This document shows, in pieces, positions 4,412 through 15,376 of a DNA stretch of 64,000 nucleotides. The notes under the pieces were generated by a model, which was given only the letters and a program-made list of their open reading frames with translations, was not told where the DNA came from and made no database searches. Source of the stretch: Herbiconiux sp. A18JL235 (GTDB lineage: Bacteria > Actinomycetota > Actinomycetes > Actinomycetales > Microbacteriaceae). Position numbers and translations under genes: made by a program. The stretch spans positions 868,001 through 932,000 of the forward strand of contig NZ_CP162511.1 in the NCBI RefSeq assembly GCF_040939305.1, read 5' to 3'. Within the stretch, counting starts at the first letter, position 1. The number at the start of each line of letters is the position of its first letter.

Positions 4412-4815
4412 CCCACGACAGCACCCTGCGCGACTTCGTGCTCGACCTCTACAGCGACCTCGGCGACCGCGCCGCGTTCGACCGGCGGCTGCATCCCGAC
4501 GTCACCGTCTGGGAGACCCCCCGGGCCGATCTGATGCGCGGCATCGCCGAACTCGACGAGCTGCGCGGGCCCGCCAGGGCGCCGGGCGAGCGCCGTGACC
4601 CCCTGCCCGACGTGCGCCCGGTGCAGATCGTGACCGACCGCTACGACGACACCGGGCTCATCCGCTACGTGCTCGAGGTGAGGGACCCGTCCGGCGGCGA
4701 GCTGCTCGAGCTCGTGCGGGTGACGGATGTGCTGCGTCGCGACGGTACGGGGTGGCGGATCGTGCACCATCACGCCCAAGATCTCGCACTGCCCGCGCCC
4801 CGGCCGAGCGCCTGA
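4408..4815 (+). CDS. NTF2-like/SnoaL-like small protein
   Basis: 135-residue protein starting at an ATG that overlaps the previous stop. It shows the pattern of the NTF2-like superfamily: an N-terminal helical stretch (RDFVLDLYSDLGDRAAFD), a short segment with HPDVTVWE, then alternating strands ending in GWRIVHHHAQ. Such proteins are usually small enzymes or ligand-binding accessory domains; catalytic residues cannot be assigned here. It is fully embedded in the operon (overlap upstream, 16 bases to the next ATG), so a role in the same catabolic route is likely but unspecified. Confidence 0.75.
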   Translation: MTHDSTLRDFVLDLYSDLGDRAAFDRRLHPDVTVWETPRADLMRGIAELDELRGPARAPGERRDPLPDVRPVQIVTDRYDDTGLIRYVLEVRDPSGGELLELVRVTDVLRRDGTGWRIVHHHAQDLALPAPRPSA

Positions 4816-4831
4816 CCGAAAGGAACGACAG

Positions 4832-5761
4832 ATGGACAGGAACAGCGTCGACTGGCACGGGTACATCCCGGCCATCACCACCCCGTTCGACCGGGAAGGG
4901 GCCTTCGACACCGCGGCATTCGAGGGGCAGATGGGCTGGCTCTCCGAGGAGGGGATGCACGGGGTGATCCTCGCCGGCACCTCGGGCGAATGGTTCAGCC
5001 TCTCGGCGGCCGAGCGCGCCGAGCTCTTCCGCCGCGGCGCCGAGTTCGGCGCGGGCATGCGGGTGCTGGGCGGCTGCAACGCCTTCACCGCCGCCGAGGC
5101 GATCCAGCACGCCCGCGAGGCGGAGAACGCCGGGCTCGACGGCATCCTGCTCACGCCGCCGCCGTATCTCGTGCCCTCGCGCGCCGAGGTGGTTCAGTTC
5201 TACCGCGACGTCGCTGACGGCACCGGCCTGCCGATCTGCGTCTACAACTGGCCGCGCGGCTGCGTGGTCGATCTCGACGCCGAGACGCTGGGCGAGCTCG
5301 CCGAGATCGACAACGTGGTGGCGATCAAGAACTCCACGGGCGATTTCCGCGGCTTCCTCGCCGGGCTCTACGCGCTCGGCGACCGGGTGCGCTACTTCGG
5401 CGTGCCCACCAGTGAGCTCGGTGCCGACCTGGTGCAGCTCGGTCGCGGCGACGGCCTGATGGGCTCCGGCGCGCCGCTCGGCCGCGACCACCCCGACTTC
5501 TGGAACGCTCTCGAGGCCGGCGACCGCGACCGGGCGATCGAGCTCGGCGCGCGCGACCGTGTGGTGATGCTCGACTGGTTCGGCGCCGACTACGGTGCCC
5601 GCTTCGGCAACCAGCAGGCGATCATGAAGACGGCGCTCCGGCTCCGCGGCGTGCCGGCGGGCTTCGTGCGCCGCCCCTTGCTCGAGCTCGACGACGAGCA
5701 GGTGGCGATCGTGCGCGGAACGCTCGAGGGGCTCGGCATCCCGACCGTCCCACTCTCGTGA
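4832..5761 (+). CDS. DapA-family aldolase/deaminase (dihydrodipicolinate synthase superfamily)
   Basis: 309-residue class I aldolase-superfamily enzyme using a lysine Schiff base. The start is the ATG preceded by GAAAGG. I see the GTSGE pyruvate-carboxylate loop at residues 49-53, Tyr138 in VYNWP, and the Schiff-base Lys166 in VAIKNSTG, so the active site looks intact. Family members include DapA, N-acetylneuraminate lyase, KdgD and pyrroline-4-hydroxy-2-carboxylate deaminase of hydroxyproline breakdown. The three downstream dehydrogenase subunits favour the last of these as inference. The stop overlaps the next GTG. Confidence 0.88.
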   Translation: MDRNSVDWHGYIPAITTPFDREGAFDTAAFEGQMGWLSEEGMHGVILAGTSGEWFSLSAAERAELFRRGAEFGAGMRVLGGCNAFTAAEAIQHAREAENAGLDGILLTPPPYLVPSRAEVVQFYRDVADGTGLPICVYNWPRGCVVDLDAETLGELAEIDNVVAIKNSTGDFRGFLAGLYALGDRVRYFGVPTSELGADLVQLGRGDGLMGSGAPLGRDHPDFWNALEAGDRDRAIELGARDRVVMLDWFGADYGARFGNQQAIMKTALRLRGVPAGFVRRPLLELDDEQVAIVRGTLEGLGIPTVPLS

Positions 5762-6960
5762 CCGCGAGGTACGACAGCGTCGTCGTGGGCGGAGGCCTCC
5801 TGGGCGCCGCGTTGGCGTGGATGCTGGCGAGCCAGGGTGCCAGCGTGCTGCTTCTGGAGCGCGATCAGCTCAATCAGCACGCCTCGGGACAGAACGCCGG
5901 CAGCCTGCACTTCCAGCTGGAGTACCGGATGGTGGAGAACGGTTGGGAGTCGGCGCGCACGGCGGCCGAGGCGATGCCGCTGCATCTGGCCGCGGCCGAG
6001 GAGTGGCGGTCGCTCGGCGATGAGCTCGGCGAGTCGCTCGGCGTGCGTCAGCCCGGCGGCTTCATGCTGGCCGAGACGGCCGAGCAGGTCGAGGTACTGC
6101 AGCGCAAGACCGAGCTGGAACGGCAATGGGGTCTGGAGGTGGTGCTGCTCGACGGCGACGAGGCACGGGCGCGCGCTCCCTACCTCTCCGACCGGGTGCT
6201 CGCGGCGGCGTTCTGCCCCATCGAGGGCAAGGCGGACACCCGCATCGCGGGCCCCGCACTGGTGAGGGGAGCAGTGCGGCGTGGTGCCGAGGTTCTCACC
6301 CGGCACGAGGTGGTCGGCCTGAGCCGCGCGGGCGAGGGCTGGCACGTGCAGGCGGTCGACCGGTCGGCGCCGGGCGCACCCGCCGAGGTGCGGTTCGAGG
6401 CGCGCACGGTGATGCTGGCCGCGGGCGTCTGGACCACGCGCCTCGGCCGCCTGCTCGATGTCGAGCTGCCCACGATCCCGTTGGGTCTGATGATGAGCGT
6501 GACTGCGGCGACGGAGCCCTTCATCCCGCACCTCGTGCAGCATGCCGGAGCGAAGCTCTCGCTCAAGCAGGCCGGGAACGGCACGGTGCTGATCGGCGGC
6601 GGCTGGCCGGCAACGCTGACCACGACGGCCGACGGTTCCCCCGACGTGGATGCGCGGCCCGCGCTCGTGCGCTCGTCGCTGATCGGCAACGCGCGCGCCG
6701 CTATCGGGGTCGTTCCCCGCACCGCGGCCCTCCCGGTGCTGCGCTCGTGGGTGGGCGCCACCACCGTCACCCCGGACCAGCTTCCTCTGGTCGGCGAAGT
6801 GCCCGGCCGACCCGGCGTCTTCGTCGCCACGGGTGGATCGGCCTTCACCCTCGGACCGAGCTTCGCCCGCTCTTTGATCGCTCTCGCCGACGGCCGTGCC
6901 CCGGCGATCGACCTCACACCCTACGACCCGCAGCGCTTCGGAGGTCTGCTCCATGTCTGA
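5758..6960 (+). CDS. FAD-dependent oxidoreductase, D-amino-acid oxidase-like (beta subunit type)
   Basis: 400-residue DAO-family flavoprotein with the dinucleotide-binding loop VVGGGLLGAALAW at residues 10-22 and a C-terminal FVATGGSAFTLGP segment closing the FAD site. It starts at a GTG overlapping the upstream stop. Together with the two following genes (a small [2Fe-2S] protein and an NAD-type flavoprotein with a BFD domain) it matches the subunit set of heteromeric dehydrogenases for D-hydroxyproline/L-proline and the HcnABC-type enzymes. It would catalyse oxidation of an amino or imino acid at the alpha carbon and pass electrons to the partner subunits. The actual substrate is inferred. 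Confidence 0.87.
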   Translation: MTARYDSVVVGGGLLGAALAWMLASQGASVLLLERDQLNQHASGQNAGSLHFQLEYRMVENGWESARTAAEAMPLHLAAAEEWRSLGDELGESLGVRQPGGFMLAETAEQVEVLQRKTELERQWGLEVVLLDGDEARARAPYLSDRVLAAAFCPIEGKADTRIAGPALVRGAVRRGAEVLTRHEVVGLSRAGEGWHVQAVDRSAPGAPAEVRFEARTVMLAAGVWTTRLGRLLDVELPTIPLGLMMSVTAATEPFIPHLVQHAGAKLSLKQAGNGTVLIGGGWPATLTTTADGSPDVDARPALVRSSLIGNARAAIGVVPRTAALPVLRSWVGATTVTPDQLPLVGEVPGRPGVFVATGGSAFTLGPSFARSLIALADGRAPAIDLTPYDPQRFGGLLHV

Positions 6961-7264
6961 CGATTCGACCCAGACCCCTCAGGCGGGGGCTGACACCGGC
7001 CGGCTCCCCGGGGACCGGGGAGAACCCCTCACCATCCTCATCGACGACGTTCCGGTCGGATGCTTCGCAGGCGAGACCGTCGCCGTGGCGCTCTTGGCCG
7101 ACGGAGTGCGTGAGTTCTCACGGCGCGGCGGGGAGCCCAGGATGCCGCTGTGCAACATGGGCACGTGCTTCGAGTGCGGCGTCGTCATCGACGGGGTGCC
7201 CCTCGTGCGCTCCTGCCTCACCGTGGTGGCCGACGGCATGACCGTCAGGACGAGCCGCTCATGA
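6953..7264 (+). CDS. Small [2Fe-2S] ferredoxin-like dehydrogenase subunit (HcnA/LhpE-like)
   Basis: 103-residue ferredoxin-fold protein. The start chosen is the ATG inside the end of the preceding gene (8-base overlap); a longer upstream extension is not needed. Four cysteines in plant-ferredoxin spacing bind the cluster: Cys67, Cys72, Cys75 and Cys88 (C-x4-C-x2-C-x12-C). In heteromeric amino-acid dehydrogenases this gamma subunit carries electrons between the two flavoproteins. It overlaps the next gene by four bases (ATGA), consistent with a stoichiometric complex. Confidence 0.88.
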   Translation: MSDDSTQTPQAGADTGRLPGDRGEPLTILIDDVPVGCFAGETVAVALLADGVREFSRRGGEPRMPLCNMGTCFECGVVIDGVPLVRSCLTVVADGMTVRTSRS

Positions 7265-8751
7265 CGATCAGGCACGACCTCGTGATCGTGGGCGCTGGCC
7301 CCGCCGGGCTGGCGGCGGCGCTCGCCGCCGCGGAAGCGGGCGCCGACGTGCTCGTCGTCGACGAGCAGCGAGCCCCGGGCGGACAGATCTTCCGCCGCAC
7401 ACCGCCCGAGTTCGGATCCCCCTCCCGCCTGCCTGCGGGATACCCGTGGGCCGAAGAGCTGCTGACGCGCGCCAGGGCCGATCCGCGCATCCGGTGGAGC
7501 CTCGGCACGACTGTTTTCGGCTTGCTGCGCCCCCTCGCGACCGAGCCCGGCGATGACGGCGCCGGAGACTTCGAGGTGTACCTGAACGGCGGGCCCTCCT
7601 CGGGCACCGTGCTGGCGCGGCGGGTGCTGATCGCGACCGGCGCCTACGACATGCCCGTGGCCGTGCCCGGCTGGACCCTGCCGGGCGTCATGATGGCCGG
7701 CGCCGTGCAGGGGCTCCTCAAGTCGCAGCGGTTGCGCGTCGCCGATCGGGTGGTGCTGGCCGGGTCCCACCCGCTGCTGGTGATCGTGGCCGCTCAGCTG
7801 GTGGCGTCGGGTGCGACGGTGACCGAGCTCGCCCTCGCGCGCTCGCTGCCTACCCTGGGGGAGCTCGTGCGGGCGCTTCCCGCGGTGCCCGGCCACGTCG
7901 GACTGCTGCTCGAACTCGCCCTCTGTCTGCTGCGACTGAAGCGCGCCGGCGTGCGCATCTCGCTCGGTACCGTGCCGCTCGCCATCGAGGGCGACGACAG
8001 GGTGCGGGCGGTGCGGTTGGTCGAGGCCGACGCGCGCTGGCGCCCGCGAGGGCCAGAACGCACGGTGGAGACGGATCAGGTGGTGTTCGGCTACGGCTTC
8101 CAGCCCTCCGCCGAGCTCGCCCGTCAGGCGGGGTGCCTCATGCGTTGGGACTCAGCCGGGGGCGGCTGGGTCGTACGCGCCGACGAACGGCTGGCCACGA
8201 GTGTGGCGGGCATCTTCGCCGCCGGTGAGCCCACCGGGGTCTCGGGCGCCGAGAAGGCGCGCGCCCAGGGGGCGTTGGCCGGGCTCGAGATCGCGCTCGA
8301 CCTCGGCCTGGCCGTCGACCCGCGGGCCCTGCCGAGGGCCCGCCGCGCGGTGAAGCGGGCCGAGCGCTTCGCGGCCGTGGTGCGGCGGATGTTCGCGCCT
8401 CGTCGCGCCGACCTCGCCGACCTCGCCACCGACTCCACCGAGGTCTGCCGGTGCGAGGCGGTGACGAGGGGAGAGGTCGACCAGTTCCTCCACGCGAACC
8501 CCCACGTCTCCTCGGTGAACCCGGTCAAACTCGCCTGCCGCACCGGGATGGGTCCGTGCCAGGGGCGCTACTGCGAGACGACGATCGGCCAGCTGGTGGC
8601 GAAGGCACGCCGGATGCCCGTCGAGGAGACCGGCGCGTTCACCGCGCATCTGCCTGTCAAACCGGTGCCGCTCAGCGCCTACGCTGCCCTCGACGACGAC
8701 CCCACGCTGCCGCTGCGGGCGGAGGAACCCGGGGGTAGCTTGGGCGCATGA
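7261..8751 (+). CDS. FAD/NAD(P)-binding oxidoreductase with C-terminal BFD-type [2Fe-2S] domain (alpha subunit)
   Basis: 496-residue pyridine-nucleotide-disulfide-oxidoreductase-fold protein. The N-terminal FAD loop is VIVGAGPAGLAAAL (residues 8-21), and a second region ending GIFAAGEPTGVSG closes the flavin site. A C-terminal BFD-like domain holds cysteines at about 396, 398, 426, 433 and 438, likely ligands of a second [2Fe-2S] cluster. This domain order matches the HcnB/LhpF type subunit. The upstream frame continues without a stop, but the ATG at 7261 overlapping the [2Fe-2S] gene is the natural start. It should form one membrane-associated or soluble dehydrogenase complex with the two preceding products. 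Confidence 0.88.
   Translation: MTIRHDLVIVGAGPAGLAAALAAAEAGADVLVVDEQRAPGGQIFRRTPPEFGSPSRLPAGYPWAEELLTRARADPRIRWSLGTTVFGLLRPLATEPGDDGAGDFEVYLNGGPSSGTVLARRVLIATGAYDMPVAVPGWTLPGVMMAGAVQGLLKSQRLRVADRVVLAGSHPLLVIVAAQLVASGATVTELALARSLPTLGELVRALPAVPGHVGLLLELALCLLRLKRAGVRISLGTVPLAIEGDDRVRAVRLVEADARWRPRGPERTVETDQVVFGYGFQPSAELARQAGCLMRWDSAGGGWVVRADERLATSVAGIFAAGEPTGVSGAEKARAQGALAGLEIALDLGLAVDPRALPRARRAVKRAERFAAVVRRMFAPRRADLADLATDSTEVCRCEAVTRGEVDQFLHANPHVSSVNPVKLACRTGMGPCQGRYCETTIGQLVAKARRMPVEETGAFTAHLPVKPVPLSAYAALDDDPTLPLRAEEPGGSLGA
8736..8741 (+). promoter_or_regulatory. Leaderless -10 element for the VOC gene
   Basis: TAGCTT lies exactly six bases before the ATG at 8748, which puts the expected transcription start at the start codon. 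It lies inside the upstream coding sequence, so the VOC gene may have its own leaderless transcript as well as read-through from the operon. Confidence 0.5.
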
Positions 8752-9125
8752 TCGGAAAACTTGACGCCATCGCGCTCGACTGCCCCGACCCCAGGGCGCT
8801 CGCCGCCTTCTACGGCGAGATCCTCGGGCTCTCCATCGCCGAAGACTCCGAGGACGAGTGGGTCGAGCTCACCGGCCCCGGCTCGGTCGACGGCGACCGC
8901 CCCGTGCTCGCCTTCCAGAAGGTGGAGGACTACCGCGCGCCGGAGTGGCCAGGCCAGCTCGTCCCTCAGCAGTTCCACCTCGACATCAGGGTCGAAGGCC
9001 TCGACGAGGGTGAGAAGGCCGTGCTGGCGCTCGGCGCCACGGCGACCGGCGAGCACTACGCGACCTGGCGGGTCTACCTCGACCCGGTCGGGCATCCGTT
9101 CTGCCTGGTCAGCTCGAACGGCTGA
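8748..9125 (+). CDS. VOC family protein (glyoxalase/bleomycin-resistance fold)
   Basis: 125-residue single-unit vicinal-oxygen-chelate protein. It opens with KLDAIALDCPDPRALAAFY, the typical first strand and helix of the fold, followed by GEILGL, and ends HPFCLVSS. Possible metal-ligand positions include His in QQFHLDI and a C-terminal Glu/His; the assignment is uncertain. Subfamilies of this kind are frequent in Actinobacteria and mostly uncharacterised. Its ATG overlaps the dehydrogenase stop, but an upstream TAGCTT element suggests independent leaderless transcription. Confidence 0.8.
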   Translation: MIGKLDAIALDCPDPRALAAFYGEILGLSIAEDSEDEWVELTGPGSVDGDRPVLAFQKVEDYRAPEWPGQLVPQQFHLDIRVEGLDEGEKAVLALGATATGEHYATWRVYLDPVGHPFCLVSSNG

Positions 9126-9161
9126 CGCCAGGGCGGGCGGCGTGAGCCCAGCACGCTGAGC

Positions 9162-9167
9162 TACACT
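9162..9167 (+). promoter_or_regulatory. -10 element for the cbs leader transcript
   Basis: TACACT fits the actinobacterial TANNNT -10 consensus and ends six bases before the GTG of the small Cys ORF, so the mRNA should start at that GTG. No good -35 is visible, which is common for leaderless promoters. Confidence 0.6.
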
Positions 9168-9173
9168 GGAGGG

Positions 9174-9206
9174 GTGTTCGTGAATCCCACCTGTTGTCGT
9201 CGCTGA
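9174..9206 (+). CDS. Ten-codon leaderless leader peptide with tandem Cys codons
   Basis: GTG-initiated ORF encoding M-F-V-N-P-T-C-C-R-R, followed by TGA. There is no Shine-Dalgarno sequence because the predicted transcript begins at the GTG. The two adjacent TGT codons sit at the base of a perfect eight-base hairpin (9196-9214) that contains the stop codon. It lies 114 bases before cystathionine beta-synthase, a cysteine-synthesis gene. Short leaderless polycysteine ORFs acting as cysteine-responsive attenuators are known upstream of cysteine genes in mycobacteria; this looks like the same principle here. Function is inferred from codon content and position. Confidence 0.65.
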   Translation: MFVNPTCCRR

Positions 9207-9214
9207 GCGACGAC
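9196..9214 (+). promoter_or_regulatory. Attenuator hairpin overlapping the leader-peptide stop
   Basis: GTCGTCGC / GCGACGAC form a perfect eight-base-pair stem around a TGA loop that is also the stop codon of the leader peptide. A ribosome paused at the two Cys codons would cover the left arm. A second hairpin (CGCATCCGT / ACGGATGCG, 9270-9289) follows before the cbs ribosome site AAGGA at 9309. Confidence 0.5.
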
Positions 9215-9320
9215 CCTTCCTGACAGACCGGATCGTCACCCGCCCCCAGCCGCCGCTCTCGCTGCGTGCCGCATCCGTCCACGGATGCGATCGGTGCGAG
9301 ACACATCCAAGGACACCCAC

Positions 9321-10688
9321 ATGAAGTACGCCAACAGCGTCATCGACCTCGTCGGCAACACGCCCCTCGTCAAGCTCAACTCGGTCACCGAGGGCATCGC
9401 CGCAACGGTGCTCGTGAAGGTCGAGTACCTCAACCCGGGCGGCTCGTCGAAAGACCGCATCGCCACCCGCATCATCGACGCCGCCGAGCGTGAGGGGCTG
9501 CTGAAGCCCGGGGGCACCATCGTCGAGCCCACCTCGGGCAACACCGGCGTCGGCCTCGCGCTGGTGGCGCAGCAGCGCGGCTACCGCTGCGTGTTCGTGC
9601 TCCCCGACAAGGTGGGTGAGGACAAGCGCAACGTGCTCACCGCCTACGGCGCCGAGATCGTCGTGACCCCCACCGCCGTCGCGCCCGAAGACCCCGACTC
9701 CTACTACTCGGTCTCCGACCGACTGGTGCGCGAGATCCCCGGCGCCTTCAAGCCCAACCAGTACGCCAACCAGAACGGGCCGCTCAGCCACTACGAGACC
9801 ACCGGCCCCGAGATCTGGCGCGACACCGAGGGCGAGGTCACGCACTTCGTGGCCGGCGTCGGCACGGGCGGCACCATCAGCGGAACGGGCCGGTACCTGA
9901 AAGAGGTCTCCGACGGCCGCGTCACCATCATCGGCGCCGACCCGGAGGGCTCGGTCTACTCCGGTGGCACCGGCCGCCCCTACCTCGTCGAGGGCGTGGG
10001 CGAAGACTTCTGGCCCACCGCCTACGACGGCTCGGTGGTCGACGACATCATCGCCGCGAGCGACGCCGAGTCGTTCGAGATGACCCGTCGACTGGCCCGC
10101 GAGGAGGGGCTGCTGGTGGGTGGCTCGAGCGGCCTCGCCGTCGTCGCCGCCCTCAAGGCCGCCCGCGAGCTGCCCGCCGACGCCGTCGTCGTGGTGCTCC
10201 TGCCCGACGGCGGCCGCGGCTACCTCGGCAAGATCTTCAACGAGAAATGGATGCGCAGCTACGGTTTCGCCGACCGGAGCGAGGGCTCGACGGTGCGCGA
10301 CCTGCTCGCCGGCAAGGGCGACGGCCTCCCGGACCTGGTGCACACGCATCCGAGCGAGACCGTTCACGACGCCATCGAGATCATGAGCATCTACGGGGTC
10401 TCGCAGATGCCCGTGCTCTCGGCCGAACCGCCCGTCGTGATGGGCGAGGTCGTCGGGTCGCTCGACGAGCAGACACTGCTCGACAAGGTGTTCACCGGGG
10501 AGGCGGCGATGACCGACAAGGTCGGCGACTTCGTCGGCCCCGCCCTGCCCCTCATCGGCATCAACGAGTCGGTCGCCTCGGCCCGTCAAGCGCTCGCCGC
10601 GACGCCCGCACTGCTCGTCTCCGACGACGGCAAGCCCGTCACCGTGATCACCCGTCAAGACCTCCTCACCTTCCTCAGCGAAGCCTGA
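9321..10688 (+). CDS. cbs: Cystathionine beta-synthase with CBS-domain pair
   Basis: 455-residue PLP enzyme joining serine (or acetylserine) and homocysteine to make cystathionine. The N-terminal catalytic domain has the PLP lysine Lys44 in GGSSKDR, the substrate loop PTSGNTGVGLAL and the phosphate-binding GTGGTISG. The C-terminal region from about residue 335 contains two CBS repeats (MSIYGVSQMPVLS and ATPALLVSDDGKPVTVITRQDLL), the regulatory module. The start is the ATG preceded seven bases upstream by AAGGA. The next gene encodes the cystathionine partner enzyme, so the pair handles sulfur transfer between homocysteine and cysteine. The upstream Cys leader suggests cysteine-dependent expression. 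Confidence 0.95.
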   Translation: MKYANSVIDLVGNTPLVKLNSVTEGIAATVLVKVEYLNPGGSSKDRIATRIIDAAEREGLLKPGGTIVEPTSGNTGVGLALVAQQRGYRCVFVLPDKVGEDKRNVLTAYGAEIVVTPTAVAPEDPDSYYSVSDRLVREIPGAFKPNQYANQNGPLSHYETTGPEIWRDTEGEVTHFVAGVGTGGTISGTGRYLKEVSDGRVTIIGADPEGSVYSGGTGRPYLVEGVGEDFWPTAYDGSVVDDIIAASDAESFEMTRRLAREEGLLVGGSSGLAVVAALKAARELPADAVVVVLLPDGGRGYLGKIFNEKWMRSYGFADRSEGSTVRDLLAGKGDGLPDLVHTHPSETVHDAIEIMSIYGVSQMPVLSAEPPVVMGEVVGSLDEQTLLDKVFTGEAAMTDKVGDFVGPALPLIGINESVASARQALAATPALLVSDDGKPVTVITRQDLLTFLSEA

Positions 10689-10708: not shown

Positions 10709-11869
10709 ATGGCGATCCAGCAGAACGAGAACTTCGAGACCCGCGCCATCCACGCCGGGCAGCAGTTCGACCCCACCACGGGCGCGATCATCCCGCCCGT
10801 CTACCTCACCTCCACCTTCGTCCAAGACGGCATCGGCGGGTTCCGCGGCGGCTACGAGTACGCGCGCGGCGGCAACCCCACCCGCACCTCGCTCGAGACC
10901 CTGCTCGCCTCGCTCGAGGGCGCCAAGCACGGCCTCTCCTTCGCCTCGGGCCTCGCCGCCGAAGACGCGCTGCTGCGCGCGGTGCTCGAGCCCGGCGACC
11001 GCATCGTGCTCGGCAACGACGCCTACGGCGGAACGCACCGGCTGATCGACCGCATCCACGGCAAGTGGGGCGTCGAGAACGTCGCCGTCGAGATGAGCGA
11101 CCTCTCCGCCGTCTCGAAGGCGGTCGCCGCCGGCCGCACGAAGATGCTCTGGCTCGAGACCCCGTCGAACCCGCTCATGAAGATCAGCGACATCGCCGAG
11201 CTCGCCGAGATCGGCCACGCCGCGGGCGCGATCGTCGTGGTCGACAACACCTTCGCCTCGCCGTACTTGCAGCAGCCGCTCGCGCTCGGCGCCGATGTCG
11301 TGGTGCACTCCACGACGAAGTACCTCGGTGGGCATTCAGACGTACTGGGCGGCGCCGTCGTGCTGAACGACGACGTGCTCGAAGAGAAGGTGCGCTTCCT
11401 GCAGTTCGCCTCGGGCGGGGTCTCGGGGCCGATGGATGCGTGGCTCACCACGCGGGGCATCAAGACGTTGGCGGTGCGCATGGACCGCCATTCGGCCAAC
11501 GCCCAGGCCATCGCCGAGCACCTCGTCGGTCACCCCGCGCTCGACGCCGTCTACTACCCCGGCCTCCCCACGCATCCGGGGCACGAGCTGGCGAAGCGGC
11601 AGATGCGCTCCTTCGGCGGCATGATCTCGCTGGCGCTCAAAGCCGGCCCCAAGGCGGCACGCAAGTTCGCCGAGTCGACCAAGGTGTTCCAGCTCGCGGA
11701 GTCGCTCGGGGGTGTGGAGTCGCTCATCGGCTACCCCTCCGAGATGACCCACGCGTCGGTGAAGGGTACGCCTCTCGAGGTTCCCGAGAACGTCATCCGG
11801 CTCTCGGTGGGCATCGAGTCGGTCGACGACCTGATCGCCGATCTCGACCGGGCGCTGCCCCGGCGCTAG
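10709..11869 (+). CDS. metB: Cystathionine gamma-synthase/gamma-lyase
   Basis: 386-residue Cys/Met-metabolism PLP enzyme. PLP Lys204 lies in HSTTKYLGGHSD, with the upstream YARGGNPTR, the aromatic YGGTHRL and VDNTFASPYLQQPL as expected. The start ATG follows GCGAAAGG. Sequence alone does not separate gamma-synthase (MetB, cystathionine from O-acyl-homoserine and cysteine) from gamma-lyase (cysteine from cystathionine). Being co-transcribed with cystathionine beta-synthase behind a cysteine-sensing leader argues that gamma-lyase activity, and therefore reverse transsulfuration to cysteine, is at least part of its job. Confidence 0.9.
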   Translation: MAIQQNENFETRAIHAGQQFDPTTGAIIPPVYLTSTFVQDGIGGFRGGYEYARGGNPTRTSLETLLASLEGAKHGLSFASGLAAEDALLRAVLEPGDRIVLGNDAYGGTHRLIDRIHGKWGVENVAVEMSDLSAVSKAVAAGRTKMLWLETPSNPLMKISDIAELAEIGHAAGAIVVVDNTFASPYLQQPLALGADVVVHSTTKYLGGHSDVLGGAVVLNDDVLEEKVRFLQFASGGVSGPMDAWLTTRGIKTLAVRMDRHSANAQAIAEHLVGHPALDAVYYPGLPTHPGHELAKRQMRSFGGMISLALKAGPKAARKFAESTKVFQLAESLGGVESLIGYPSEMTHASVKGTPLEVPENVIRLSVGIESVDDLIADLDRALPRR

Positions 11870-11927: not shown

Positions 11928-13670
11928 TCACACGGCGGGTTTGGTGTCGGAGTGGATCCATGCGTCGAAGAGCGCCGAGAGGTCGTCGCCCGAGAGCGAT
12001 TCGGCATACGAGACGAACTCGGCGGTCGACCCGGACCCTCCGGCGTGACCCGCAGCCCAGCCCTGGAGGATGGCGAAGAAGTCGTCGTCGCCCACGGCGG
12101 TGCGGAGCGCCTGCAGCGTCATGGCCCCGCGCACGTAGACGGGTGCGTCGAATATGCCGGATGCTCCGGGGTCGGCGATCTCCGTCGTCCAGAAGTCGTC
12201 GGGTGCCGAGGCGTAGGCCTGGTCGAAGCTCTGCTGCGGGGTCGGGCCGCCGGTGTGCTCGGCCCACAGCCACTCGGCGTAGGTGGCGAAGCCCTCGTTC
12301 AGCCAGATGTCGCTCCACCGGTGCATCGAGACGTCGTCTCCGTACCACTGGTGGGCGAGCTCGTGCACGACCACGGAGGCATCGGCGTCGGCAGGGAACG
12401 ACCAGCTCGGGTAGATGGGCCTGGTCTGGTTTTCGAGGGCATACGGCAGGGGCTGCCCGGGCGAGAGGTCGGCGATGGCGATGCCGCCCGCCTCGCTGAA
12501 CGGATAGGGCCCGAACGACTGCTCGAGGACGTCGATGACCTCGGGCTCGGTGGCGAAGATCTTCGCCGCCACGTCGCCGACGGTCGTGCCGCCGCCGTCG
12601 GCCTCGACGGTGTAGAGGGAGGGGTCGATGGCGTCGTAGAACGTGATGCCGTCGACCGTGGAGGTGGTGATGTCGTAGTCGCCGACCGTCGCTGTGGCGA
12701 GGTAGGTGGCCATGGGCTTCGCCATCTCCCAGGTGAAGCTGGTGCGACCGGCTGAGGTCGATTCGCCCGCGAGGCGGCCGTTGCCCACCACGGTGAGCCC
12801 CTCGGGCACCGACATGGTCGTGGTGAAGGTGGCCTTGTCGGACGGGTGGTCGTTCGACGGGAACCAGGTCGCCGCCACGCGGGGCTGACCCACGATCACG
12901 GCGCCGTCGGTCGAGCGGAACACCCCGGCCGGGCCGAAGGCGTCGTCGATGGTGATCGGCACGCCGCGGTAGACGACCGTCGTCGAGATCGTGCTCCCGC
13001 TCGGGATGCCCGACGCGGGGGTGACGGTGAGCTCGGTGCGGGGCGGCGTGGCGTCGCCGTCGGTCGACCCGGGGAGCTGGGGCTGGCCGGTGACGATGCT
13101 GATCTGGGTGCTCGCGAGGCTCCACCCCGCTGTGGCCCCGTCGACCGTGACCGAGTCGATGGCGATGGCGTCGCTGCCGTCGACGGTGCGGGTGTCGAAG
13201 TCGAGGTTGAAGGAGGAGAGGTTCTCGGTGGCGACCGCCTCGATGGTGGCGGAGCCGGAGAGCACCCCGGTGGCGGGCTCGTAGGAGAGGTCGAGGTCGT
13301 AGTGCTCGACGTCGTACCCGCCGTTGCCGTCGAGCGGGTAGTAGGGATCGCCGATGCCGGCGGCGCCCGCGACGAAGTCGACGGGAGCCGGGGTGGGCGT
13401 GGGTGTCGGCTCGGGGGTCGGCAGCGGCGACGGCGACGTCGTCGGCGGGCACGGTGCAGCGGCGCTCGCCGACTGCGGCGCGAACCCTCCACCGCCGATC
13501 ACGAGGGCTGCCACGAGCAGCGGCAGCGTCGCCAGCGCGATCGCGCCGCGCCGCCGGTGGCGACGCACCAGGAGCCAGGCGGCCCCGCCGCCGACGGCTG
13601 CTAGTGCCAAGGCGAGGAGGACCAGGGGGAAGGGGCCCGAGCCCGTTGCCGCCAATTCGCAGGAGTTCAT
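11928..13670 (-). CDS. Secreted M1 family zinc aminopeptidase with odd N-terminus
   Basis: 580 residues from the ATG at 13670. The M1 zinc site HELAHQW occupies about residues 436-442, with the third ligand Glu in WLNEGFATYAEW, and the exopeptidase domain precedes it. The first 41 residues read like a C-terminal sortase signal: LAATG at residues 6-10, a hydrophobic run, then RRHRRR. This is followed by a conventional hydrophobic signal segment ending SASA. A GTG at 13568 would instead give a clean signal peptide beginning MRRHRRR. I list the longer frame but think the shorter start is as likely. It is a paralogue of the next gene and probably co-transcribed with it. Confidence 0.88.
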   Translation of the reverse strand: MNSCELAATGSGPFPLVLLALALAAVGGGAAWLLVRRHRRRGAIALATLPLLVAALVIGGGGFAPQSASAAAPCPPTTSPSPLPTPEPTPTPTPAPVDFVAGAAGIGDPYYPLDGNGGYDVEHYDLDLSYEPATGVLSGSATIEAVATENLSSFNLDFDTRTVDGSDAIAIDSVTVDGATAGWSLASTQISIVTGQPQLPGSTDGDATPPRTELTVTPASGIPSGSTISTTVVYRGVPITIDDAFGPAGVFRSTDGAVIVGQPRVAATWFPSNDHPSDKATFTTTMSVPEGLTVVGNGRLAGESTSAGRTSFTWEMAKPMATYLATATVGDYDITTSTVDGITFYDAIDPSLYTVEADGGGTTVGDVAAKIFATEPEVIDVLEQSFGPYPFSEAGGIAIADLSPGQPLPYALENQTRPIYPSWSFPADADASVVVHELAHQWYGDDVSMHRWSDIWLNEGFATYAEWLWAEHTGGPTPQQSFDQAYASAPDDFWTTEIADPGASGIFDAPVYVRGAMTLQALRTAVGDDDFFAILQGWAAGHAGGSGSTAEFVSYAESLSGDDLSALFDAWIHSDTKPAV

Positions 13671-13771
13671 GGATGCTCGCCGATCGTGTCGAGGGAACGG
13701 TGCTCAGGAAGCCCCCAGCATAGGGGCACAGCAGGGCCGGGGAACAGCCCGGGGTGATGGGCGGTCAGGCC

Positions 13772-15376
13772 TCAGGTGGACGTGGGCTTCGAGCCGGTGT
13801 AGAGCCAGGTGTCGAAGAAGTCGCCGAGGTCGCTCCCCGAGGCCTTCTCGACGTGGGCGATGAAGTCGTCGGTCGAGACGGTGCCGTAAGCGTTCTCGGC
13901 GGCCCACGACTTCACGGCGGAGAAGAAGACCTCGTCGCCGAGCTTCAGCCGCAGGGCGTGCAGGGTCATGGCGCCCCGGTTGTAGACCGCTTCGTCGAAG
14001 ACGTGCGCGGGTCCCGGGTCGCCGATCTCGAGGCCCCAGAACGGGTCGCTCGCCGGCTGGTCGTCGAGGAAGTCGAAGATCTGCTGGGCGGTCTGGCCGC
14101 CCTGGTCTTCCGACCACAGCCACTCGGCGTAGGTCGCGAAGCTCTCGTTCAGCCAGATGTCGCTCCATGCGGCGATCGACACGCTGTCGCCGAACCACTG
14201 GTGGGCGAGCTCGTGCACCACGGTCGACAGGCCCTCGGGCCCCTCGAACACCCACGGCCCGTAGATGGGGCGGGTCTGGTTCTCGAGCGCGTAGTCGAGG
14301 TCGTCGACGTTGACGGCGATGCCGCCCGACTCGGTGAACGGGTAGGGTCCGAAGCGCGAGGCGAGGAACGCGGTGATCTCGGGCCCACGGGCGAAGGCTT
14401 GATCGGCCAGGTCGCCGTAGCTCTGCCCGGTCGCCTCCACGGCCTGCTCGTCGAAGAGGCCGCTGCCGACGGCGTTCCAGTAGTCGATGCCGTCCTGCGA
14501 CAGCGTCGAGACGGCGAAGTCGCCGACCGTGGCGGTGGCGAGGTAGGTGGCCATCGGCTCGTCCATCACCCACTCCCAGTCGGTGCGGCCGTCTGCGGTG
14601 ACGGCACCTGCCAGCCGCCCGTTCGAGATGGCCTGCAGACCCTCGGGAACCGACATCCGGATGCGGAAGGTCGCCTTGTCGGCGGGATGGTCGTTGGCCG
14701 GGAACCAGGTCGCCGCCACGCGCGGCTGGCCCACGATGACGGCGCCGTCGGCGGTGCGGATGACCCCGCCGTAGCCGAAGGTGTCGTCGATGGTGGCGGG
14801 CACGCCGCCGTACTCGACGGCCACCGTGAAGTCGGTGCCCTCGTCGATGCCCGCCGCGGGCGTGACGATGAGCTCGGTGCGCCCGGGATCGGCCAGCCCG
14901 TCTCCTTCAGCACCTGCCGCACCGTCTTCGTCGCTCCCGTCGGCGGCCCCGGGCTCGTCGCCTTCCGGCTCATCGACCGGTTGCCCCGTGGCGGCACTGA
15001 TGTCGAAGCTCTCGGTGGTGAAGTCTGCGTCGACGTCGTCGACGGTGACCCTGGTGACCATGAGCCCGTCGAGGTCGAGGTCGAAGCGCGACAGGTCTTG
15101 GGTGGCGGTGGCGCTGATGACGGCGCGGCCCGCGAGCTCACCCGTCTCGGGCTCGTAGGCGAGCTCGAGGTCGTAGTGCCCCACGTCGTAGCCGCCGTTG
15201 CCGTCGAGCGGGTAGTAGGGGTCTCCGATACCCGCGGCCCCGGGCTGGTAGCGGCTCTCGGGTGTGCCGGTCGGAGACGGGGTGGGGTCGGGGGTCATGC
15301 CCGTGCAGCCGGCGAGTAGGGCCACGAGCGCGACCGCGCCCACCGTCGCCGCGCCGAAAGTGCTGCGTCGCTTCAC
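13772..15376 (-). CDS. M1 family zinc metallopeptidase lipoprotein
   Basis: 534 residues from a GTG overlapping the EamA stop (GTGA). It has a lipoprotein signal peptide with lipobox LAGC and lipidated Cys24, then a Thr/Pro-rich linker. The zinc motif HELAHQW is at about residues 388-394, followed by WLNESFATYAEW. A charged Glu/Asp/Gly-rich insertion lies near residues 135-165. It is clearly homologous to the M1 protein that follows: both share the GIGDPYYPLDGNGGYDV opening and GQPRVAATWFP. The likely role is trimming extracellular peptides at the membrane surface. Confidence 0.92.
   Translation of the reverse strand: MKRRSTFGAATVGAVALVALLAGCTGMTPDPTPSPTGTPESRYQPGAAGIGDPYYPLDGNGGYDVGHYDLELAYEPETGELAGRAVISATATQDLSRFDLDLDGLMVTRVTVDDVDADFTTESFDISAATGQPVDEPEGDEPGAADGSDEDGAAGAEGDGLADPGRTELIVTPAAGIDEGTDFTVAVEYGGVPATIDDTFGYGGVIRTADGAVIVGQPRVAATWFPANDHPADKATFRIRMSVPEGLQAISNGRLAGAVTADGRTDWEWVMDEPMATYLATATVGDFAVSTLSQDGIDYWNAVGSGLFDEQAVEATGQSYGDLADQAFARGPEITAFLASRFGPYPFTESGGIAVNVDDLDYALENQTRPIYGPWVFEGPEGLSTVVHELAHQWFGDSVSIAAWSDIWLNESFATYAEWLWSEDQGGQTAQQIFDFLDDQPASDPFWGLEIGDPGPAHVFDEAVYNRGAMTLHALRLKLGDEVFFSAVKSWAAENAYGTVSTDDFIAHVEKASGSDLGDFFDTWLYTGSKPTST

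Follow-up and report, generated by a model that had tools for sequence, protein, structure and literature searches.

Introduction

In attenuators of the trp type, the control codons of the leader peptide lie in arm 1 of the leader RNA and the stop codon lies between arms 1 and 2. The leader RNA of a leaderless polycysteine short open reading frame (sORF) of mycobacteria is said, after Canestrari et al. 2020, to mask the ribosome-binding site (RBS), which a stalled ribosome reportedly frees. Leaderless Cys-rich upstream ORFs of mycobacteria are described as first candidates in the part of PMC4633059 considered here, and passages of PMC13236596 and PMC9094748 cite Canestrari et al. 2020 for polycysteine sORFs. 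Candidate Cys leader peptides were reported by Seliverstov et al. in 2005 for cys operons of Mycobacterium and P. acnes and for cbs of Bifidobacterium longum, and the sections of that paper considered here describe them as being without conserved terminators and propose Rho (PMC1262725). In Rhodobacterales, uORFC-8-2 stands before cysS and combines tandem Cys codons with an intrinsic terminator, according to the relevant part of PMC8632094. Here we analyse a window of 64,000 nucleotides (nt) from Herbiconiux sp. A18JL235 (Microbacteriaceae; contig NZ_CP162511.1, positions 868,001 to 932,000), in which a short ORF with two Cys codons lies ahead of cbs and metB and is best explained as part of a cysteine-sensing attenuator of the two genes.

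Results

A Cys-Cys leader ORF upstream of cbs-metB

Re-reading of the sequence bore out every element of the preliminary description of this locus: TACACT, a 6-base gap, GTG, a ten-codon ORF with a Cys-Cys pair, 114 nt between the end of the leader and the ATG of cbs at 9321, and a perfect eight-base hairpin with the stop codon in its loop (Table 1). The leader reads GTG TTC GTG AAT CCC ACC TGT TGT CGT CGC TGA (n=10, the start read as Met), so that the Cys-codon run is close to the stop of a short ORF located upstream of a cysteine-metabolism operon, the two genes of which are separated by 20 nt. The profile scan for metB covered the stretch from 10721, and its start codon at 10709 was fixed separately. 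A sigma-70 scan revealed no two-hexamer promoter at the leader, and the promoter call is therefore that of a -10 element by itself. The spacing from TANNNT to the start is 6 bases in the window and 6-8 bases across the printed leaders of relatives (our rule admits 4-9), and the leader start codon would be the 5′ end of the mRNA. Searches with Rfam cis-regulatory families returned 0 matches, both in 8700-9700 at E up to 1 and in the window at the gathering score.

Table 1 Features of the cbs leader region and operon, in window coordinates
Feature	Position	Strand	Detail
-10 element TACACT	9162-9167	+	six bases 5′ of the leader GTG; sequence read
Leader ORF MFVNPTCCRR, leaderless type	9174-9206	+	GTG 9174-9176 to TGA 9204-9206; sequence read
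5′ end of the presumed mRNA, GUGUUC	9174-9179	+	predicted pairing with GGACAC 9311-9316, Shine-Dalgarno (SD) region
Adjacent Cys codons TGT TGT, presumed control codons	9192-9197	+	codons 7-8 of 10
Stop-loop hairpin, GTCGTCGC 9196-9203 / GCGACGAC 9207-9214	9196-9214	+	eight-base arms; loop TGA 9204-9206
Spacer, C-rich and G-poor, possible Rho loading region	9207-9304	+	C 0.43, G 0.28
SD-like AAGGA of cbs	9309-9313	+	sequence read
cbs, cystathionine beta-synthase	9321-10688	+	TIGR01137, 613 bits, cut-off 510
metB, cystathionine gamma-synthase family	10709-11869	+	NF005871, 650 bits, cut-off 513

The surroundings of the operon comprise, at 4727-8751, a cluster encoding a DHDPS-family protein, a DAO-type FAD oxidoreductase, a 2Fe-2S protein and a Pyr_redox_2/BFD protein, which we take to resemble amino-acid or hydroxyproline oxidation clusters. 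On the minus strand, at 11928-15376, two M1-family metallopeptidase genes lie side by side, convergent with cbs-metB.

The Cys codons are kept in relatives

We searched the regions upstream of cbs for leaders by a fixed rule (TANNNT 4-9 nt before ATG or GTG, 5-22 codons, CC or CxC). A first sample of 81 upstreams, consisting of the best 80 of 588 Cbs matches and the window, yielded 16 matches (16/81), as against 0.08 per 81 in first-order shuffles of the same upstreams (100 rounds) and 0/81 on the reverse strand; among 300-nt windows from both strands of the best 80 loci, 14/3684 matched, leader-holding windows included. The closest named relatives among the best 80 of 588 are Herbiconiux species (Cbs identity 90-91%), and it is from Cbs similarity to these named species that the genus and family labels of the sampled relatives were inferred. 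A genus sample contained the region in 15 of 16 genomes and the leader in all 15 of these.

To this we added a family sample of 199 Microbacteriaceae genomes, 143 of which gave a Cbs match at 1e-100; 130 upstreams were read (30 automatic loci and 100 fetched), and the other 13 of the 143 were omitted as partial matches. A leaderless-type ORF with a Cys doublet was present in 31 of the 130 cbs upstreams, as compared with 0.10 matches per 130 after shuffling (20 rounds), an excess of approximately 300-fold; the 81- and 130-upstream samples share species and are not independent. The leaders are spread over 14 genera by rule and group code, or 15 with two CxxC leaders (L244 and L250) that were added by eye, and three doubtful ones (L259, L286 and L291) were left uncounted. 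In the same family-sample test, other doublets were found as totals without breakdown (Arg 25, Ser 13, Leu 8 and Pro 1), and Arg and Ser adjoin the Cys residues in the printed leader peptides.

These peptides are 8-14 codons long and vary widely (MFLSCCRR, MRLRLSCSCCPR, MSTVKSCCCCR, MIILTPCPCCCFH and others), such that the Cys codons stay while the rest of the peptide diverges between genera. Of the 32 leaders from other genera, 30 have their last Cys codon 1-3 codons 5′ of the stop. The preliminary description had named conservation of the Cys codons upstream of cbs in relatives as a check, and they are indeed kept, in 15/15 matching genomes of the genus and 31/130 upstreams of the family. 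The leader, its Cys codons and its place are read directly from the sequence of the window, and its conservation from that of the relatives; judged from these sequences, the leader is probably a switch under cysteine control, of a type that has been described before.

Leaders use TGT where genes prefer TGC

The Cys codons of 47 leaders (32 from other genera and 15 of Herbiconiux type, many of the latter near copies) comprised 106 TGT and 14 TGC, whereas 32 long ORFs of the window with high GC3 contained 75 TGC and 8 TGT. The bias of the leaders against this reference, which consists of the long ORFs of the window only, gave a Fisher p of 1.7e-31 with kin leaders treated as independent; the other genera by themselves gave a TGT:TGC ratio of 75:14. 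The choice of TGT could sharpen the sensitivity of stalling or serve RNA pairing. A search of titles found no paper on codon choice in such leaders, and the bias opens the question of why leaders use TGT where genes prefer TGC.

Two probable 5′ designs of cbs

The family sample divides into 65 of 130 upstreams with TANNNT 3-10 nt before cbs itself, 31 with the leader, 34 with neither and 0 with both. The first sample (best 80 of 588 and the window) likewise has TANNNT at cbs in 27/81, the leader in 16/81 and both in 0. Because the -10 element stands right at cbs in the 65 upstreams, half of the family sample probably makes a leaderless cbs mRNA. That the two arrangements exclude each other is no surprise, as transcription beginning at cbs would leave a leader no space; it is the repeated gain or loss of the leader that is informative. 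On a quick gene tree of the 81 Cbs proteins of the first sample, the leader label (16 rows) requires seven changes, six of these being forced by well-supported branches, where changes are gains or losses relative to all other rows of a gene tree. In the neighbouring genus Subtercola (3 rows), cbs is probably leaderless.

That leader and leaderless cbs never occur together (0/130) is also what a simple promoter shift predicts, and the leader ORF might accordingly be a neutral by-product of such a shift, with Cys codons that arose by chance. We consider this highly improbable, given the roughly 300-fold excess of Cys doublets over shuffles in peptides that otherwise differ, the confinement of the last Cys codon to the neighbourhood of the stop in 30/32 leaders of other genera, and the TGT bias.

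Leaders elsewhere in the genome and family

To look for similar leaders at other genes, we used a sequence-only model (R1) built from 30 cbs leaders, which differently shaped leaders could escape. It found one significant site in the genome of Herbiconiux sp. A18JL235, that of cbs (1e-7), the next best scoring 0.29; a match in G038 had no Cys leader by script and was taken as chance. An alternative to attenuation is that MFVNPTCCRR acts in trans, perhaps as a micropeptide that binds metals or thiols, and the Arg that follows the Cys codons in most printed peptides would suit such a role. However, the remaining residues differ between genera, the length varies from 8 to 14 residues, and 25 of the 26 model sites in the 199 family genomes stand before cbs, so we give this explanation very little credence.

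A 15-mer, TGTTGTCGTCGCTGA, was tried as a family-wide marker and rejected; it occurs at 63 sites in 60/199 genomes. Four of the 30 loci read are cbs leaders, and at the other 26 neither a Cbs match in the following 1.4 kb nor, by eye, a leader was found; the remaining 33 sites include at least three cbs leaders by coordinates (G008, G026 and G053). The 15-mer recurs in one shared context in many family genomes (L112-L117 and others), apparently that of one conserved gene.

cbs-metB in the sulfur metabolism of the genome

A metB-like gene lies within 1.6 kb 3′ of cbs in 56 of 76 named loci (from the best 80 of 588), including all 15 leader-bearing loci in that test. The PAPS/APS reductase profile PF01507 found no match in the genome of Herbiconiux sp. 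A18JL235, while control genomes matched in 14/14 cases, which makes conversion of methionine to cysteine by Cbs and a MetB-type lyase a plausible cysteine supply. Both cysE and cysK were found in the genome, so the cell need not rely on reverse transsulfuration; the region upstream of cysK-cysE is without a Cys leader of this type. Induction of cbs-metB under uncharged Cys-tRNA would make sense as part of a cysteine supply from methionine.

Possible coupling of the leader to cbs expression

The explanation that we hold, as a whole, to be likely is that ribosome stalling at the Cys codons of a leaderless leader releases the masked cbs start. Transcription would begin at the leader GTG, so that the ribosome would load on the extreme 5′ end of the mRNA and translate MFVNPTCCRR. 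When Cys-tRNA is scarce, this ribosome would stall on TGT TGT and cover the 5′ half of the leader; because it would thereby prevent the leader from pairing with the cbs start region, the start would be left free and cbs-metB would be made. With plentiful cysteine, the ribosome would finish, the leader RNA would refold and cbs expression would drop. What this scheme predicts is where transcription starts, that the ribosome stalls, which way expression responds and how the leader is coupled to cbs; for this last step, masking of the start is our first choice and Rho-dependent termination in the C-rich spacer the second. The preliminary description had proposed transcriptional read-through here, which may apply instead of start masking.

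RNAalifold analysis of 14 sequences of the genus predicted a closed fold, in which GUGUUC pairs with GGACAC and GUGAAUC with letters of the GAUUCG type and the stop hairpin is formed. Covariation in this fold was little above shuffles (the score was reached by 15/500 and the number of double-change pairs by 345/500), and it cannot test the helix between the 5′ end and the SD because the pairs are nearly invariant. The energy needed to open the cbs RBS was averaged over sets of loci. For 11 loci from other genera it was 10.1 kcal/mol in the free RNA, 3.8 with a ribosome at the first Cys codon and 5.3 with a ribosome at the stop, as compared with 6.7 for shuffled leaders. The 15 Herbiconiux-type loci gave 4.5 (free), 3.1 (stalled) and 4.9 kcal/mol (stop), and here shuffled leaders masked more (5.6 kcal/mol). 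For 21 held-out loci the values were 6.5, 4.5 and 5.4 kcal/mol in the same order, the free state being close to that of shuffled leaders (6.2 kcal/mol; p 0.46) and the drop on stalling giving p 0.09 against shuffled leaders. RBS masking that is freed by stalling is thus predicted as a set in the 11 loci of other genera and weakly in the 15 Herbiconiux-type loci, and was not seen as a set in the 21 held-out loci, among which L180, L199 and L244 individually behave as start masking predicts and four (L172, L220, L265 and L273) show a raised opening cost on stalling.

In the window itself, the cbs AUG was unpaired with a probability of 0.43-0.46 in the free RNA, 0.55-0.84 with nt 1-31 covered and 0.05-0.06 with the ribosome at the stop. 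The gain in AUG opening depends on the footprint, since covering nt 16-31 only gives 0.18, less than in the free RNA. Both G of the SD remained largely paired in each of the four states, with an unpaired probability of no more than 0.26. The modelled folds of the window fit start masking in direction, with a small size in its genus.

Specific pairing between leader and RBS was assessed by swapping partners and comparing duplex energies. Thirteen loci, mostly those in which the pairing was first noticed, gave p 0.0002; p was 0.003 for 34 loci, 0.007 for the 32 of them outside the genus of the window and 0.001 for 28 thinned loci. In the 21 held-out loci p was 0.34, and in a thinned set of 16 of them 0.14; we dropped the claim of a general preference of leaders for their own RBS.

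The stop-loop hairpin, which the preliminary description had treated as part of the switch, is genus-specific. A stem of at least five pairs surrounds the stop in 15/15 Herbiconiux-type leaders and in 5/32 leaders from other genera, the latter the same as in controls (16%); a stem of at least eight pairs, G-U allowed, arises in 1.4% of controls with shuffled downstream sequence built from leaders of other genera. At one locus of the genus, L155 (G206), the hairpin persists with a single base pair altered in both arms in a compensating manner (by eye), and the leader is kept while the middle of the spacer is missing, leaving 49 nt; stalling lowers the cost of opening its RBS from 7.5 to 2.9. 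As a conserved working part the hairpin is not supported, being confined to the genus of the window. Of the proposed cysteine attenuator before cbs, what stands is a leaderless-type Cys leader ahead of cbs-metB in 14 genera, and what does not is the hairpin as its conserved working part.

The leader might instead sense cysteine and act on transcription through Rho in the C-rich spacer before cbs, a reading that we regard as rather unlikely. The end of translation at the TGA would leave the spacer free and RNA polymerase would be stopped before cbs; a stalled ribosome, together with an altered fold (about 9209-9215 with 9230-9237, rather than with the Cys-codon arm), would hinder termination. 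The spacers of leader loci average C 0.44 and G 0.28, as compared with 0.346 and 0.342 in 65 upstreams of leaderless cbs and 0.367 and 0.337 in 34 upstreams of neither kind. The peak of C minus G per 40 nt is 0.25 in the 32 loci and 0.327 in the 15 Herbiconiux-type loci, against 0.172 in 155 ordinary upstreams; the p of 0.0001 for the 32 loci versus ordinary upstreams is too small because the loci are related, and the C peak of the window itself is matched by 10% of ordinary upstreams. A scan of 9100-9330 for intrinsic terminators gave 0 terminator-like sites, with no hairpin and U run before cbs. Rho was proposed for such leaders by Seliverstov et al. 2005, who in the same part of their paper call the prediction rather weak (PMC1262725).

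Discussion

Returning to the leader as a cysteine sensor, we tentatively propose, with somewhat less than even confidence, that cbs of Microbacteriaceae comes in either of two 5′ arrangements, a leaderless mRNA of its own or a leaderless-type Cys leader followed by an SD-led cbs, and that the leader was gained or lost at least six times on the Cbs tree. Selection would keep the sensing TGT codons, against the TGC preference of ordinary genes, and the coupling RNA would be rebuilt in each lineage, be it as masking, Rho or the stop-loop hairpin. This opens the question of whether a sensing leader can persist while its coupling mechanism changes, and the 47 natural leader variants assembled here, including the minimal 49-nt spacer of L155, are a supply of material for it.

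Among known systems, the window resembles the trp-type attenuator in having control codons in arm 1, the stop between arms 1 and 2 and a possible rival arm 3, but is without a terminator arm and U run. uORFC-8-2 shares with the window tandem Cys codons in a reading frame that precedes a cysteine gene; it differs, in the part of the article considered, by its terminator with a U run, by Cys codons at positions 14-15, by its occurrence in Alphaproteobacteria and by the dominance of UGC, where TGT dominates in the cbs leaders of Microbacteriaceae (PMC8632094). The leaders of Seliverstov et al. 2005 share with the present ones a Cys run near the stop, a place before cbs, no conserved terminator and a pyrimidine-rich spacer; they come from another family, the sections considered make no mention of a leaderless start, and metB follows cbs here (PMC1262725). 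Since that paper reports the Bifidobacterium longum cbs candidate, the earlier statement that no case had been described before a transsulfuration operon was wrong (PMC1262725). With the mycobacterial polycysteine sORFs, as far as the sources considered describe them, the leader shares a start predicted to be of leaderless type, a Cys run near the stop and a position ahead of a cysteine-metabolism operon. It is distinguished from them by its occurrence in another family of Actinomycetota ahead of cbs-metB, by RBS masking that is predicted to be weak in the genus of the window and by the genus-specific stop-loop hairpin. The leader of the window is a well-supported addition to the known Cys leader peptides, not new in kind, and, set against the papers considered, extends them from mycobacteria, Propionibacterium and one report in Bifidobacterium to a further family, in which 14 genera or more carry them.
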